Of a DNA stretch of 64,000 nucleotides, positions 21,936 to 32,789 are shown in pieces. How positions within the stretch are numbered: the stretch's first letter is position 1; the number at the start of each line of letters is the position of its first letter. Position numbers and translations under genes: made by a program. Under the pieces are notes generated by a model. The model ran no database searches and was not told where the DNA came from. It worked only from the letters and a program-made list of their open reading frames with translations. The DNA lies in NCBI GenBank assembly GCA_003352285.1, contig QQVN01000005.1:124001-188000 (forward strand). The letters run 5' to 3'. Source of the stretch: Thermoproteota archaeon. GTDB taxonomy: Archaea; Thermoproteota; Nitrososphaeria; Nitrososphaerales; Nitrosopumilaceae.

Positions 21936-22550
21936 TTGTTTTCTATATCTACCCTAGTCGATGTTGTAAGGATACCACCTAGCTTGTTTGGCACAACTCT
22001 CAAAAAAGCGGCAATCAACATTCTCAAAGAAAAGTACGAAAGCATGATCAATGCAGATTTGGGATACATCATTATGATTTTAGATGCCAAAGTAGACGAG
22101 ATGGGAAAGATGGTAGCCGGAGATGGAGGAACATTTCACAAAGTTGAGTTTGAGGCATTAACATTTTATCCAAAACTACAAGAGATTGTTCAAGGGGAGA
22201 TTGTAGACATTACAGACTTTGGTGCATTTGTTAGAATTGGCCCAACTGACGCATTACTACACCTTTCACAAGTAATGGATGATTATTTGAAGAGTGATGT
22301 AAAGTCAGGAATGATTCTTGCAAATCAAAGTGGAAGAACTCTCAAAGTTGGTTCAACATTACGTTCTAGAATTACTGCTGTATCATTAGGTAAAGCAGCT
22401 TCAATGGGAAAGATAGGAATCACATGCAGACAGCCATTCTTAGGTGCTGATGAATGGATTGCAGAAGAGATCAAAAAAGGTGGAAGCGATGCAGATAGTG
22501 ACAAGCCATCAAAGAAAGAAGAAAAGGCTGTAGAAGTAAAGGAGAAGTAA
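21936..22550 (+). CDS. rpo7: DNA-directed RNA polymerase subunit Rpo7 (E')
   Basis: A 204-residue subunit of the archaeal RNA polymerase stalk. The N-terminal RNP-like domain begins MFSISTLVDVVRIPPSLFG. The S1/OB domain has EIVQGEIVDITDFGAFVRIGPTDALLHLSQV. A Lys/Glu/Ser-rich acidic-basic tail of about 25 residues extends the C-terminus. The start is TTG. It is the first gene of a tight operon with spt4 and nadC. Confidence 0.96.
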   Translation: MFSISTLVDVVRIPPSLFGTTLKKAAINILKEKYESMINADLGYIIMILDAKVDEMGKMVAGDGGTFHKVEFEALTFYPKLQEIVQGEIVDITDFGAFVRIGPTDALLHLSQVMDDYLKSDVKSGMILANQSGRTLKVGSTLRSRITAVSLGKAASMGKIGITCRQPFLGADEWIAEEIKKGGSDADSDKPSKKEEKAVEVKEK

Positions 22551-29464: not shown

Positions 29465-31535
29465 GATTGGAGATTTTCTATCCCACTCAGATACAAAACT
29501 AAATTTTGAAAATGGAGTTACAGTCTTTGTAGGCCATAATGGAGCAGGTAAATCAAGTGTTATTGATGCAATTACATTTGCATTATTTGGACAACACACA
29601 AGAAAATCTAACAAAGGATTAGTACGTAGGGGACAAAATCAAGGATTTGCAAGCATTACGTTTACTGTGGGAGATAGAGAGTATAGATCAACTAGAAAAA
29701 TAGACACAAAGGGTACAATGTCATCACAATTCTTAGAGAGAAAAGAGGAAGATTGGATTCCAATTGCAGAAGGAGAAAGAAAGCAATTTGGAGAATCTAT
29801 GACAAAAAAAATTGAATCAGCCATTGGTTTAGATTTTGAAAAATTAAAAATTGCATCAATTGTTCAGCAAGGAGAACTTAATTCAATAATCAAGGCAAAA
29901 CCAAAAGAATTCAAAGAGTTGATTAATGCCATAATAGGTATCGACAAGCTGGATATTTCATCAGAATTTATGAAAGAAATTCTAAAAAACTTCAGACATA
30001 CCATAAAAACTGAATTAAACTATGACGATACGCAAATTGACTTTTTAAAAAATGAGGTCGATAGATCAAAAGAAGAAGTAGAAAAAAACATTCCCTTACA
30101 TAAACAAATCATTGCAGAAAAAGAAAAAATTCAAAATGAGATAAAACAACTTAAAGAAAAAATAGAAAGAGATTCCCCCAAATTGGATAAAATTCAGCAA
30201 TTAAATTTGAGAAAAGATGAATTGGTAAAATATGCAAAAGATGCAATCTTGTCAATTCAGAAAGATATCACTCAAAAAGAGAGGAAAATTAGTGAATGTG
30301 AAGGCTGTTTTGACATAATTACGAAGAAAAATGATTTGGAAAACGTATTAAAAACAATTGAAGAAAGTATTGAAGATTCGTTAAAGAAAATTGAAGGCCT
30401 TAAGCTGAAAATAGCTTCTCTAAATGAACAAGAATCTATTGCAAAAAAACTACATCTTGATGACGGTAAATGCCCAGTGTGTGATTCTAAAGTTGATCAT
30501 TTGAATCCATTATTTCAGGAAGAGCACCTCAGAGAAGAGATCAATAGAATGAAAAATGAGACTATAAAGTTGGAAAAGGATCACGGAGCATACACTATAA
30601 AGAAGAATGATTTTACAAAGAAGATTCAGCAGATTAGAGATGCAGAAACAATTCTCCGAACTCATTCAATTACATCAATTCAAGAAATTAGTCAATTAAA
30701 ACAAGAAGTACAAAATAAGCGTAGTGACATACAAAAAATTCCATTAACAATTAATTCAAGACAATTAGTTGAGATTGCATCAATTGACTCACACTCAAAG
30801 CAGTTGTATGAAAAAATCCATCAACTTGAAGAACAGACAAAAGATTTTGATTTTGAATCATTTAAAAATTTGAAAAATTCTTTGACAGATAAAGAAAGAG
30901 AGGGAAGTAGTTTAGATCAGAAATTAGGAGCCATACAAGAAAAAATTCGAAATGATGAAGAAAGAATTTCCAAAACAGAATCAGCGTTAAAAGAATTGAA
31001 TGTTGTCAAACAGTATATCGATAATCTTGTAAACATTCAAAACAATGTTTTTAGTCGTGACGGTCCAGTTGCAACAAGTTTAAGATCATGGGCATTAGAC
31101 ATGATTTCACTTAAGGCATCTGAATATCTATCCATGTTAAACACAAAGATTCAGCGAATAGAGTTATCAGAAAAAGCTAGGGATGTATCAATAATTTGTT
31201 ACTCAAAAACCACCAGTTTAGATTTAGAATCTTTGAGTGGTGGGGAGCAGGTAAGCATTGCACTAGCACTAAGACTTGGAATGACTCAGTTACTAGGAAC
31301 TTCCAATCTGAATTTTGTCATTCTAGATGAGCCAACAATGCATTTAGATGAAGAACGAAGAAGATCATTAGTCAAAGTTCTATCTCAACTTTCAGAGATA
31401 GGAAATCTACAAGAAAAAGTACCTATGCAGTTTATTATAATTACTCATGATGCAGAGATTTTTCAAGATTCTGCAGTTGAGCAGATTTTCAGATTCGAAT
31501 CTTCCAATTCAGGAACGGTAGTTACAGCACTCTAG
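29448..31535 (+). CDS. rad50: SMC-like repair ATPase Rad50
   Basis: A 695-residue ATPase. Walker A GHNGAGKSS is at about 29-37. Two coiled-coil arms of roughly 150 residues flank a zinc hook CPVC at about 341-344. The signature LSGGEQ is near 596 and Walker B FVILDEPTMHLD near 623. It is shorter than the 850-1000 residues usual in other archaea, so the coils must be short. It bridges and senses DNA ends with Mre11. Confidence 0.96.
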   Translation: MIRTVEIGDFLSHSDTKLNFENGVTVFVGHNGAGKSSVIDAITFALFGQHTRKSNKGLVRRGQNQGFASITFTVGDREYRSTRKIDTKGTMSSQFLERKEEDWIPIAEGERKQFGESMTKKIESAIGLDFEKLKIASIVQQGELNSIIKAKPKEFKELINAIIGIDKLDISSEFMKEILKNFRHTIKTELNYDDTQIDFLKNEVDRSKEEVEKNIPLHKQIIAEKEKIQNEIKQLKEKIERDSPKLDKIQQLNLRKDELVKYAKDAILSIQKDITQKERKISECEGCFDIITKKNDLENVLKTIEESIEDSLKKIEGLKLKIASLNEQESIAKKLHLDDGKCPVCDSKVDHLNPLFQEEHLREEINRMKNETIKLEKDHGAYTIKKNDFTKKIQQIRDAETILRTHSITSIQEISQLKQEVQNKRSDIQKIPLTINSRQLVEIASIDSHSKQLYEKIHQLEEQTKDFDFESFKNLKNSLTDKEREGSSLDQKLGAIQEKIRNDEERISKTESALKELNVVKQYIDNLVNIQNNVFSRDGPVATSLRSWALDMISLKASEYLSMLNTKIQRIELSEKARDVSIICYSKTTSLDLESLSGGEQVSIALALRLGMTQLLGTSNLNFVILDEPTMHLDEERRRSLVKVLSQLSEIGNLQEKVPMQFIIITHDAEIFQDSAVEQIFRFESSNSGTVVTAL

Positions 31536-32029
31536 CCGCCAGTAAGCTTGGCAAACTTTTCATTTTTGCTAAGTTTTTCCATAAATTCAATGTTGGATAA
31601 AGCAACAACTGCTGATTCTACTACTGGCTCATCAGGATCATTTAGAGCCTTTTGGAGTGCTTCTTTTGCCTCCTTATTTCCTACAACACCTAATGCTATT
31701 GCAGCTTCATGTCGTACAAACATGCTAGGATCATTTAATGTGGCATCAACTAGATGGGGAACACATATTGAATGACCCATTTGACCTAATGAAAAAGCAG
31801 CCTCGTGTCGGACTAGCTCATTAACATCATTTTTGAGAACTTTGGCAATGTAGGGTACTTTGTCTTCTCCACCAAAATCTACCAAGATGCAAGTTGATCG
31901 AGTTCTCACTACATAATCATCATGTTCTAAAAGATTTACAAAATATTTTACATCTTTTTTTTCATATTTTTCTTCCATTTCGGAAAATAGTTTTAATCGC
32001 TCATCAGTCACGACTTGTTTTTGACTCAA
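31532..32029 (-). CDS. HEAT-repeat protein with two His-Glu motifs (half-DOHH-like)
   Basis: About 165 residues made of four or five HEAT/PBS-lyase-type repeats. Two successive repeats carry VRHEAAFSLGQMG and VRHEAAIALGVVG, with the His residues 32 apart, closely like the iron-binding repeats of eukaryotic deoxyhypusine hydroxylase, which has four such HE pairs. The TTG at 32029 is preferred because a minus-strand TATA element (about 32050-32058) lies 26 bases upstream. An ATG at 32092 is also in frame. It converges on rad50 with a 4-base overlap. It could also be a simple scaffold. Confidence 0.82.
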   Translation of the reverse strand: MSQKQVVTDERLKLFSEMEEKYEKKDVKYFVNLLEHDDYVVRTRSTCILVDFGGEDKVPYIAKVLKNDVNELVRHEAAFSLGQMGHSICVPHLVDATLNDPSMFVRHEAAIALGVVGNKEAKEALQKALNDPDEPVVESAVVALSNIEFMEKLSKNEKFAKLTGG

Positions 32030-32129
32030 TGATAAATGCCACCTAGTCTCATATATTATCCTAATTCGTATTTTCAAATTAAGGAAAGACATAGTTATGT
32101 TTTTAATAGAAAATCAAATCAACTAAATT

Positions 32130-32789
32130 ATGCGAGCAAAGATAGGCGAGAAAGCACCTAATCTCAAAATTTCCGAATGGGTCCAAGGAATGCCAACAAA
32201 TTTTGATCAGGAGAAAGACAAGATCATTCTCGCAGAGGTTTTCCAAGTAAATTGTCCGGGATGTTTTATGTATGGCATACCTGAGGCGATAAACATCTAC
32301 AACAAATACAAGGATGAAGGAGTTCGAGTCGTAGGCATTGCAACAGCGTTTGAGGATTTTGATAAAAATACACTAGACAATTTGAAATTATTGTTAAAAA
32401 CAGGAGAAGTGATTGGAGATACCCTTCAATCACTTGGTCAATACAAGCAGCTGGATGGAAACAAAATACCATATAAAATACCATTTCCAGTAGCTATGGA
32501 TTCCCTTATCAAGGAAACAGGTGAGATCGATAATGCAAGAATTATGGATTTTATTTATTCACAAATTCCAGCATTTGATTCACAACCAGAAGATTATCGC
32601 ACTCAGATTATTCAAAGAGTCAAAGATTACATGAAATCAAAAGAGTATACTGCAGAAACATTTGAGATGTTTTCCTTGCAAGGAACACCATCTACAATTC
32701 TAGTTGACAGAAAAGGAATATTACGAGACGTATCCTTTGGGCAGAGCGGTAATTTGGAACCAATGATTCAATCATTACTTAATGAGTGA
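32130..32789 (+). CDS. Thioredoxin-fold redoxin (TlpA/AhpC-TSA like)
   Basis: A 219-residue cytosolic redoxin without a signal peptide. The N-terminus KIGEKAPNLKISEWVQG is typical of the AhpC/TSA-TlpA group, and the active site is NCPGC at about 41-45 (CxxC). The cis-Pro region is GTPSTILVDRKG near the C-terminus. It is longer than usual, with a helical insertion in the middle. It is probably a disulfide reductase. Its 3' end overlaps the convergent PEFG protein by 15 bases. Confidence 0.85.
   Translation: MRAKIGEKAPNLKISEWVQGMPTNFDQEKDKIILAEVFQVNCPGCFMYGIPEAINIYNKYKDEGVRVVGIATAFEDFDKNTLDNLKLLLKTGEVIGDTLQSLGQYKQLDGNKIPYKIPFPVAMDSLIKETGEIDNARIMDFIYSQIPAFDSQPEDYRTQIIQRVKDYMKSKEYTAETFEMFSLQGTPSTILVDRKGILRDVSFGQSGNLEPMIQSLLNE

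Follow-up and report, generated by a model that had tools for sequence, protein, structure and literature searches.

The stretch of DNA considered here (the window) comprises 64,000 nucleotides of a Thermoproteota archaeon of the family Nitrosopumilaceae (assembly GCA_003352285.1, contig QQVN01000005.1, positions 124,001 to 188,000), whose genome measures 1.69 Mb in 5 contigs. The subject of the analysis is a small gene on the minus strand of this window (31532..32029), which encodes a protein made of HEAT repeats, here called A, that resembles one half of eukaryotic deoxyhypusine hydroxylase (DOHH). A first-pass annotation had placed a HEAT protein at this position and had read in it two strings with His-Glu (HE) pairs; both were borne out, and the histidines, His75 and His107, are 32 residues apart. 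A has 165 residues if translation starts at a TTG at 32029 (coding frame 31535-32029, stop codon at 31532-31534 included in the gene); an upstream ATG at 32092 is an alternative start that would give 186 residues, and the alignments of orthologues begin approximately at the TTG. Relatives of A in Nitrosopumilus metagenome-assembled genomes are up to 86% identical, which makes an ammonia-oxidising archaeon the most likely source of the window. Searches of Pfam and NCBIfam returned generic HEAT matches alone: A passed the gathering score of Pfam HEAT_2 (80 versus 27.7 bits) and missed the NCBIfam equivalog cut-offs of NblB (41 of 300 bits), CpcE (36 of 330), and CpcF (19 of 220).

An AlphaFold2 (AF2) model of A based on 43 sequences, with a predicted local distance difference test score (pLDDT) of 93.1 and a predicted template modelling score (pTM) of 0.85, contains an N-terminal helix and four HEAT repeats, all encoded on the minus strand. 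The helix (residues 9-23, 31961..32005) is modelled with a mean pLDDT of 94 over residues 11-20 and 98 over residues 21-30. Repeat 1 (residues 27-52, 31874..31951), delimited by the model and the alignments, contains the invariant Arg42 and matches the RxRA motif of DOHH repeats 1 and 5. It is followed in the model by repeat 2 (residues 55-84, 31778..31867), repeat 3 (residues 87-116, 31682..31771), and repeat 4, which includes the long last helix (residues 119-163, 31541..31675). The two HE pairs, His75-Glu76 (31802..31807) and His107-Glu108 (31706..31711), lie in repeats 2 and 3, respectively, each in the second helix, according to our own assignment of helices to repeats in the model.

PMC9117371, PMC11203672, and PMC3306375 describe DOHH as eight HEAT repeats forming a symmetrical dyad, whose four HE pairs hold two irons and the substrate. 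The iron anchors given in PMC9117371 are His56, His89, Glu90, His207, His240, and Glu241, and the substrate residues are Glu57, Glu90, Glu208, Glu241, and two glycines, one of which is printed there as residue 65; the sequence has Met at 65 and Gly at 63, and position 63 was adopted. As the first-pass annotation had stated, the four pairs fall into two halves; the histidines of the human protein (His56/89 and His207/240) are 33 residues apart in each. In the alignment, His75-Glu76 of A corresponds to His56-Glu57 and His207-Glu208, and His107-Glu108 to His89-Glu90 and His240-Glu241, A having His, Glu, His, and Glu at the ligand and substrate places of DOHH. Moreover, A, its paralogue B (described below), and both human DOHH halves can be aligned co-linearly across all four repeats. 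The proposed likeness of A to half of DOHH is real and extends far past two strings, comprising the four-repeat layout, the repeats that carry the HE pairs, the co-linear alignment, and the invariance of the ligand positions.

This invariance was examined in several sets of sequences. Both HE pairs are present in all of the 67 distinct A orthologues picked by score from whole-genome searches, no motif having been used in their selection; 80 loci found by VRHE patterns were excluded from this set, and the AF2 models of the window protein and of a Caldarchaeum orthologue rest on such loci. Invariant columns make up 22 of 154 in the orthologues, the HE pairs among them. Identity to the window protein is as low as 34% in the A1 alignment, and the pairs are still invariant in the A3 alignment, which adds lineages outside the class. 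Among 131 distinct open reading frames (ORFs) scoring above 100 bits with the A1 profile, 130, the 67 among them, keep both pairs and the remaining one is a long multi-repeat protein; a control ORF (L221) that exceeded 100 bits through summed repeats was excluded. A glycine seven residues after the first His was found in 130 of 130 A orthologues. The control HEAT ORFs came from A-negative genomes, from the third, HE-free HEAT protein of the source genome, and from two plasmid proteins, several of them being overlapping pieces of one protein. HE occurred at one of their 74 distinct helix-B-like sites, and two HE pairs spaced 27-38 residues apart occurred in none of 32 ORFs. The sole control HE site lies in a 95-residue frame that resembles repeats 3-4 of A, like a remnant of A. 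At locus L231 (G282:C77, approximately 22282-22416), in a family of the same order, only repeats 3-4 of an A-like protein are left beside an apparent tRNA stretch; this piece is possibly a truncated gene.

Sequence and fold comparisons also associated A with DOHH. When the halves of human DOHH were compared by phmmer with the ORFs of the loci, the 131 ORFs of the A group, which was formed by motif, reached a median of 50.8 and a maximum of 59.7 bits with the N half (control maximum 25.8 in 34 ORFs) and a median of 44.3 and a maximum of 57.7 bits with the C half (control maximum 24.3 in 35 ORFs). With the HE letters masked, the A medians were 39.3 and 32.7 bits for the N and C halves, and the control maxima 25.2 and 27.5. 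In the unmasked comparison, paralogue B scored between A and the controls, with up to 42.2 and 31.5 bits. In a search of the Protein Data Bank with the A1 profile, DOHH was the best natural chain (132 bits in two stretches), followed among natural chains by a proteasome subunit (45 bits). A Foldseek comparison of the A model with DOHH (4d4z) gave a query TM-score of 0.72 at 1.8 Å over 133 columns, with 29-34% identity, and this TM-score was the highest among the 50 matches listed. In VIA-align, DOHH had a Z-score of 15.8 with a root-mean-square deviation (rmsd) of 3.1, most designed proteins having Z-scores of 16-20, and the DOHH match ended at residue 152 of the model and 285 of the chain, which is the register placing His107 on His240. 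DOHH was again the top natural chain, with a query TM-score of 0.67, for a model of the Caldarchaeum orthologue (pLDDT 90.8). Overall, A scores higher with DOHH than natural HEAT controls do, in most cases even after masking, but designed HEAT proteins score as high and the tree described below does not group A with DOHH; a sequence kinship specific to DOHH may exist.

Genes of the hypusine pathway, which the first-pass annotation had not foreseen as neighbours of A, provide a second line of evidence. The source genome has one aIF5A gene (G000:C3:109440), whose loop reads TSKPGKHGAAK, and two genes of the synthase family, of which one carries GGGISKHH; both motifs are read here as canonical. 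The other synthase-family gene (G000:C3:556828-557721) has a divergent active-site stretch, as has a gene at L279:8735-9784 (GGGVPKN and GGGVPKD). With aIF5A and the two synthase-family proteins as queries, the A loci were searched, including wide regions of up to approximately 10 kb on each side in the window and 43 further genomes, 44 in total; seven of these regions (L260, L262, L267, L268, L276, L302, and L303) were shortened by contig ends, and G004 was counted once. A hypusine gene lies directly beside A in three of the 44 genomes, belonging to three families. In G263 (family f3), a canonical deoxyhypusine synthase gene (GGGISKHH) comes after A on the same strand, the frames being 75 bases apart. 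In Archaeon HR01 (G414, family f35), a canonical synthase gene, a synthase paralogue, and A stand in a row, with 33 bases between the paralogue and A; this intervening gene is a relative of the divergent synthase gene. In G029 (family f18), an aIF5A gene with the loop SKPGKHGSAK is convergent with A, 286 bases separating the frames. Furthermore, a synthase gene lies approximately 5 kb from A in two Caldarchaeum-type genomes of family f35 (G342 and G314). The proposition that A is not near hypusine genes was rejected, since this direct search found synthase or aIF5A genes alongside it.

In the 66 loci of non-A HEAT proteins, covered mostly to approximately 1.5 kb on each side, no hypusine-pathway gene was found. 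A rough Poisson estimate, with three gene kinds, two neighbour slots, and a total chance of 0.003 per genome as our own assumption, gives a probability of 0.0003 for at least three adjacent cases in 44 genomes and of 0.008 over all 131 A loci, many of which are near relatives. The neighbour question was framed by the earlier hypothesis, yet the search was made late. Because the three arrangements differ, they are unlikely to derive from one inherited neighbourhood, which speaks for repeated association. The presence of pathway neighbours means that the resemblance of A to DOHH counts as more than likeness, and it raised our confidence in the metal site from somewhat probable, and in aIF5A as the substrate from rather doubtful, to the levels given below.

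The distribution of A was compared with that of COX1, the haem-copper oxidase. Of 300 genomes of the class, 224 had a match at 1e-10, and A was assigned to 219 after five weak matches were left uncounted; within the window's family it was found in 152 of 171 genomes, incomplete ones included. Across 398 genomes of the phylum, 85 matched, three of them through other HEAT proteins, leaving 82 carriers (one, G107, by a 59-residue piece). Carriers outside the class belong to families f35 (Candidatus Caldarchaeum and Archaeon HR01), f50 (Thermoproteota), and f77. COX1 was present in 81 of the 82 carriers of the phylum versus 76 of 316 other genomes, and the lone exception is 81% complete. Within the class, 197 genomes have both genes, 22 A only, 38 COX1 only, and 43 neither, the A-only genomes belonging to families f1, f3, and f4, in which COX1 is otherwise present. 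This association fits an oxygen user and also fits shared descent in a few aerobic clades.

The source genome also encodes the paralogue B (G000:C3:148777-149268, locus L003), which shares the layout of A, ends in the manner of DOHH repeat 4, and carries a DES.RWD motif in its first repeat. Both HE pairs were counted by profile in all 33 distinct members, and at the place of the conserved glycine 28 of them have Ala, 3 have Gly, and 2 have Ser. B is patchy, with 53 matches at E <1e-40 in 50 of the 300 class genomes, and a B query over 28 genomes of 14 families found no B, the six matches all being A genes. In a tree of 51 rows, B formed its own clade (100/100), and the human DOHH halves were joined (99/97), as expected from internal duplication.

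On this basis, we consider it reasonably likely that A is a half-size counterpart of DOHH, acting as a homodimeric, DOHH-like di-iron hydroxylase of aIF5A, the dimer, the iron, the oxygen chemistry, and the substrate being inferred. Taken separately, a homodimeric metal site of DOHH type is the more secure part and is judged probable, with dimer and iron predicted, and aIF5A is on balance favoured as the substrate. Each chain would form a HEAT solenoid of four repeats, the second and third of which carry one HE pair apiece, and two chains would face each other across a genuine two-fold axis where DOHH has a pseudo-two-fold one. The irons would be held in part by His75, His107, and Glu108 of each chain, with Glu76 and Gly82 contributing to substrate binding. 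Such a di-iron centre would activate O2 and hydroxylate the deoxyhypusine that deoxyhypusine synthase forms on aIF5A. The earlier interpretation of A is partly supported.

Several other explanations share part of this evidence. Invariant ligand positions and carriers equipped with an oxygen reductase would equally suit a DOHH-like oxygenase acting on a substrate other than aIF5A, and so would the failure of A to occur everywhere that hypusine does, the control Sulfolobus genome having no HEAT_2 match. The scaffold has also been used more than once, as B keeps both pairs, and 39 of the 44 genomes have no aIF5A or synthase gene within approximately 10 kb of A. On the other hand, a hypusine-pathway gene stands beside A in three families, and the remaining recurrent neighbours (Rad50-like, redoxin-like, and an unmatched ORF) name no substrate, so that this explanation is considered unlikely. 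Somewhat less likely still, A could serve as a HEAT scaffold without catalytic activity, possibly one that partners the synthase or aIF5A, its HE pairs binding a structural metal or the partner. Most HEAT proteins are scaffolds according to PMC9040561, the database matches of A are generic and below the NCBIfam equivalog cut-offs, and adjoining pathway genes would suit a partner as well; however, A keeps invariant four positions at which other HEAT proteins seldom have HE, and these match the DOHH ligands. A heterodimer of A and B, each supplying half of a DOHH-like site, would draw on the shared layout, the two pairs in 33 of 33 B members, and the ending of B that resembles DOHH repeat 4. It appears very improbable in view of the patchiness of B (50 versus 219 of the 300 class genomes for A, and none in the 28 genomes of 14 families) and of the alanine that mostly occupies its glycine place.

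A number of observations weigh against the preferred reading of A as a homodimeric hydroxylase of aIF5A. Once the HE letters are masked, A scores reach down to 16.1 and 19.6 bits, under the best controls, so that the ranges overlap. Ten designed HEAT chains outscore DOHH in the Protein Data Bank search with the A1 profile, DOHH is 22nd by Foldseek E-value with designed HEAT proteins ahead of it, and CpcE equals it in VIA-align (Z 15.8), though with an rmsd of 6.8. The tree does not settle where the DOHH halves belong among A, B, and the remaining HEAT proteins. The first-pass caution that RHEAA strings also occur in ordinary HEAT proteins is partly right, since a distant phage HEAT protein bears two HE pairs. 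The lack of pathway genes around A in the 39 genomes mentioned above (they were found in five) includes the source genome, where A is on contig 5 and aIF5A and both synthase genes are on contig 3. Moreover, several COX1-bearing families are without A, and because COX1 and A are inherited in a few clades, their association does not represent many independent events. There is also the case of Sulfolobus and of Thermoproteus tenax, the latter an anaerobe. Hypusine is reported for both in PMC5178350, and no HEAT_2 match was found in the control Sulfolobus genome; other archaea would consequently need another enzyme.

The remaining neighbours of A are varied. In the window, the A gene overlaps the end of a plus-strand Rad50-like gene by four bases and stands head to head with a redoxin-like gene (32130-32789) whose match to Pfam Redoxin stays under the cut-off; calling plus-strand genes of the window HerA, Mre11, and Rad50 is our own reading. 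Clustering of the neighbours in 36 A loci (two of 38 had no centre found) placed a Rad50-like ORF next to A in 13 and a redoxin-like ORF in nine. An ORF of 153-187 residues with no Pfam or NCBIfam match is divergent beside A in seven of the 36 loci (e.g., L119:4271-4732 and L265:10489-10956) and is a possible partner of A; two of its loci also have a Rad50-like gene, and in G263 it lies beside A and the synthase gene. Elsewhere, A is accompanied by CO-dehydrogenase-like genes (in Caldarchaeum) or by an NADH-dehydrogenase or citrate-synthase gene. None of these non-hypusine neighbours names a function or substrate for A.

Mobile elements and viruses were also searched. No tblastn match to A was found in phages, and in plasmids there was one weak match only, a Calothrix protein without HE pairs. 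Viral contigs yielded no further DOHH sequences for the tree, and a fold search of BFVD with A gave no match at an E-value of 0.001. The phage protein with two HE pairs has 142 residues and is encoded at L252:2868-3296 (IMGVR_UViG_3300043603_000014), between ORFs that we take to be portal-like and head-protease-like; it falls inside A in the tree, its branch being very long and flagged as unsure by the program. Scans for tandem repeats, promoters, and terminators gave nothing useful.

According to PMC6105217, PMC7773846, PMC5178350, and PMC3306375, several archaea contain hypusine and no DOHH homologue is known in archaea. The first-pass statement that archaeal aIF5A carries deoxyhypusine and mostly lacks a known hydroxylase was in this respect too narrow, as archaea with hypusine, deoxyhypusine, or both are reported in PMC5178350, PMC7773846, and PMC9599864. 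In the open-licence literature, no title or abstract opening was found that links an archaeal HEAT protein, DOHH, and ammonia-oxidising archaea, nor was there any paper on hypusine with Nitrosopumilus. A represents a testable candidate for the enzyme said to be missing. Conserved, common among ammonia-oxidising archaea, and in places encoded next to the synthase or aIF5A, this half-size protein with the ligand positions of DOHH makes the question of an archaeal hydroxylase testable on one small protein. PMC9040561 portrays DOHH as an enzyme derived from a HEAT module that was not itself an enzyme. A DOHH ancestor that preceded the internal duplication would have had the anatomy of A, and if the proposal is true, DOHH gains a plausible intermediate in the form of a single half working as a dimer. 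The broader idea that A is the missing DOHH of ammonia-oxidising archaea and Caldarchaeum, homodimeric and preserving the half-size form ancestral to the eukaryotic enzyme, is more tentative and is put forward as a possibility somewhat short of even.

Among known systems, human DOHH (4d4z) shares with A the four-repeat unit, the HE pairs in repeats 2 and 3, and the positions of the ligands and the substrate glutamates, as well as a glycine seven and an aromatic residue four positions after the first His and, in most rows, the RxRA motif in repeat 1. It differs in having eight repeats and four HE pairs in its single chain, whereas a chain of A has four repeats and two pairs and would need to dimerise. 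By strict membership (eight repeats and four pairs per chain), A is not a DOHH, but the claim that the two function alike is no weaker for it. Designed HEAT proteins, such as alphaRep and its relatives (e.g., 5dcq and 6veh), share the repeat consensus and the fold with A at equal or higher scores; they are, however, artificial, and the stretches shown for three chains are without HE pairs. CpcE/CpcF and NblB, of the phycobilin lyase type, have generic HEAT repeats like those of A and match it weakly, far under the NCBIfam equivalog cut-offs. Escherichia coli YibA (1oyz) has the HEAT fold and once served as a template for modelling DOHH, but lacks the active-site residues, as stated in PMC3306375, and reaches 39.5 bits with the A1 profile. 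Finally, a thaumarchaeal HEAT protein in the literature, with a proposed role in countering host proteases, may be A, B, or another HEAT protein.

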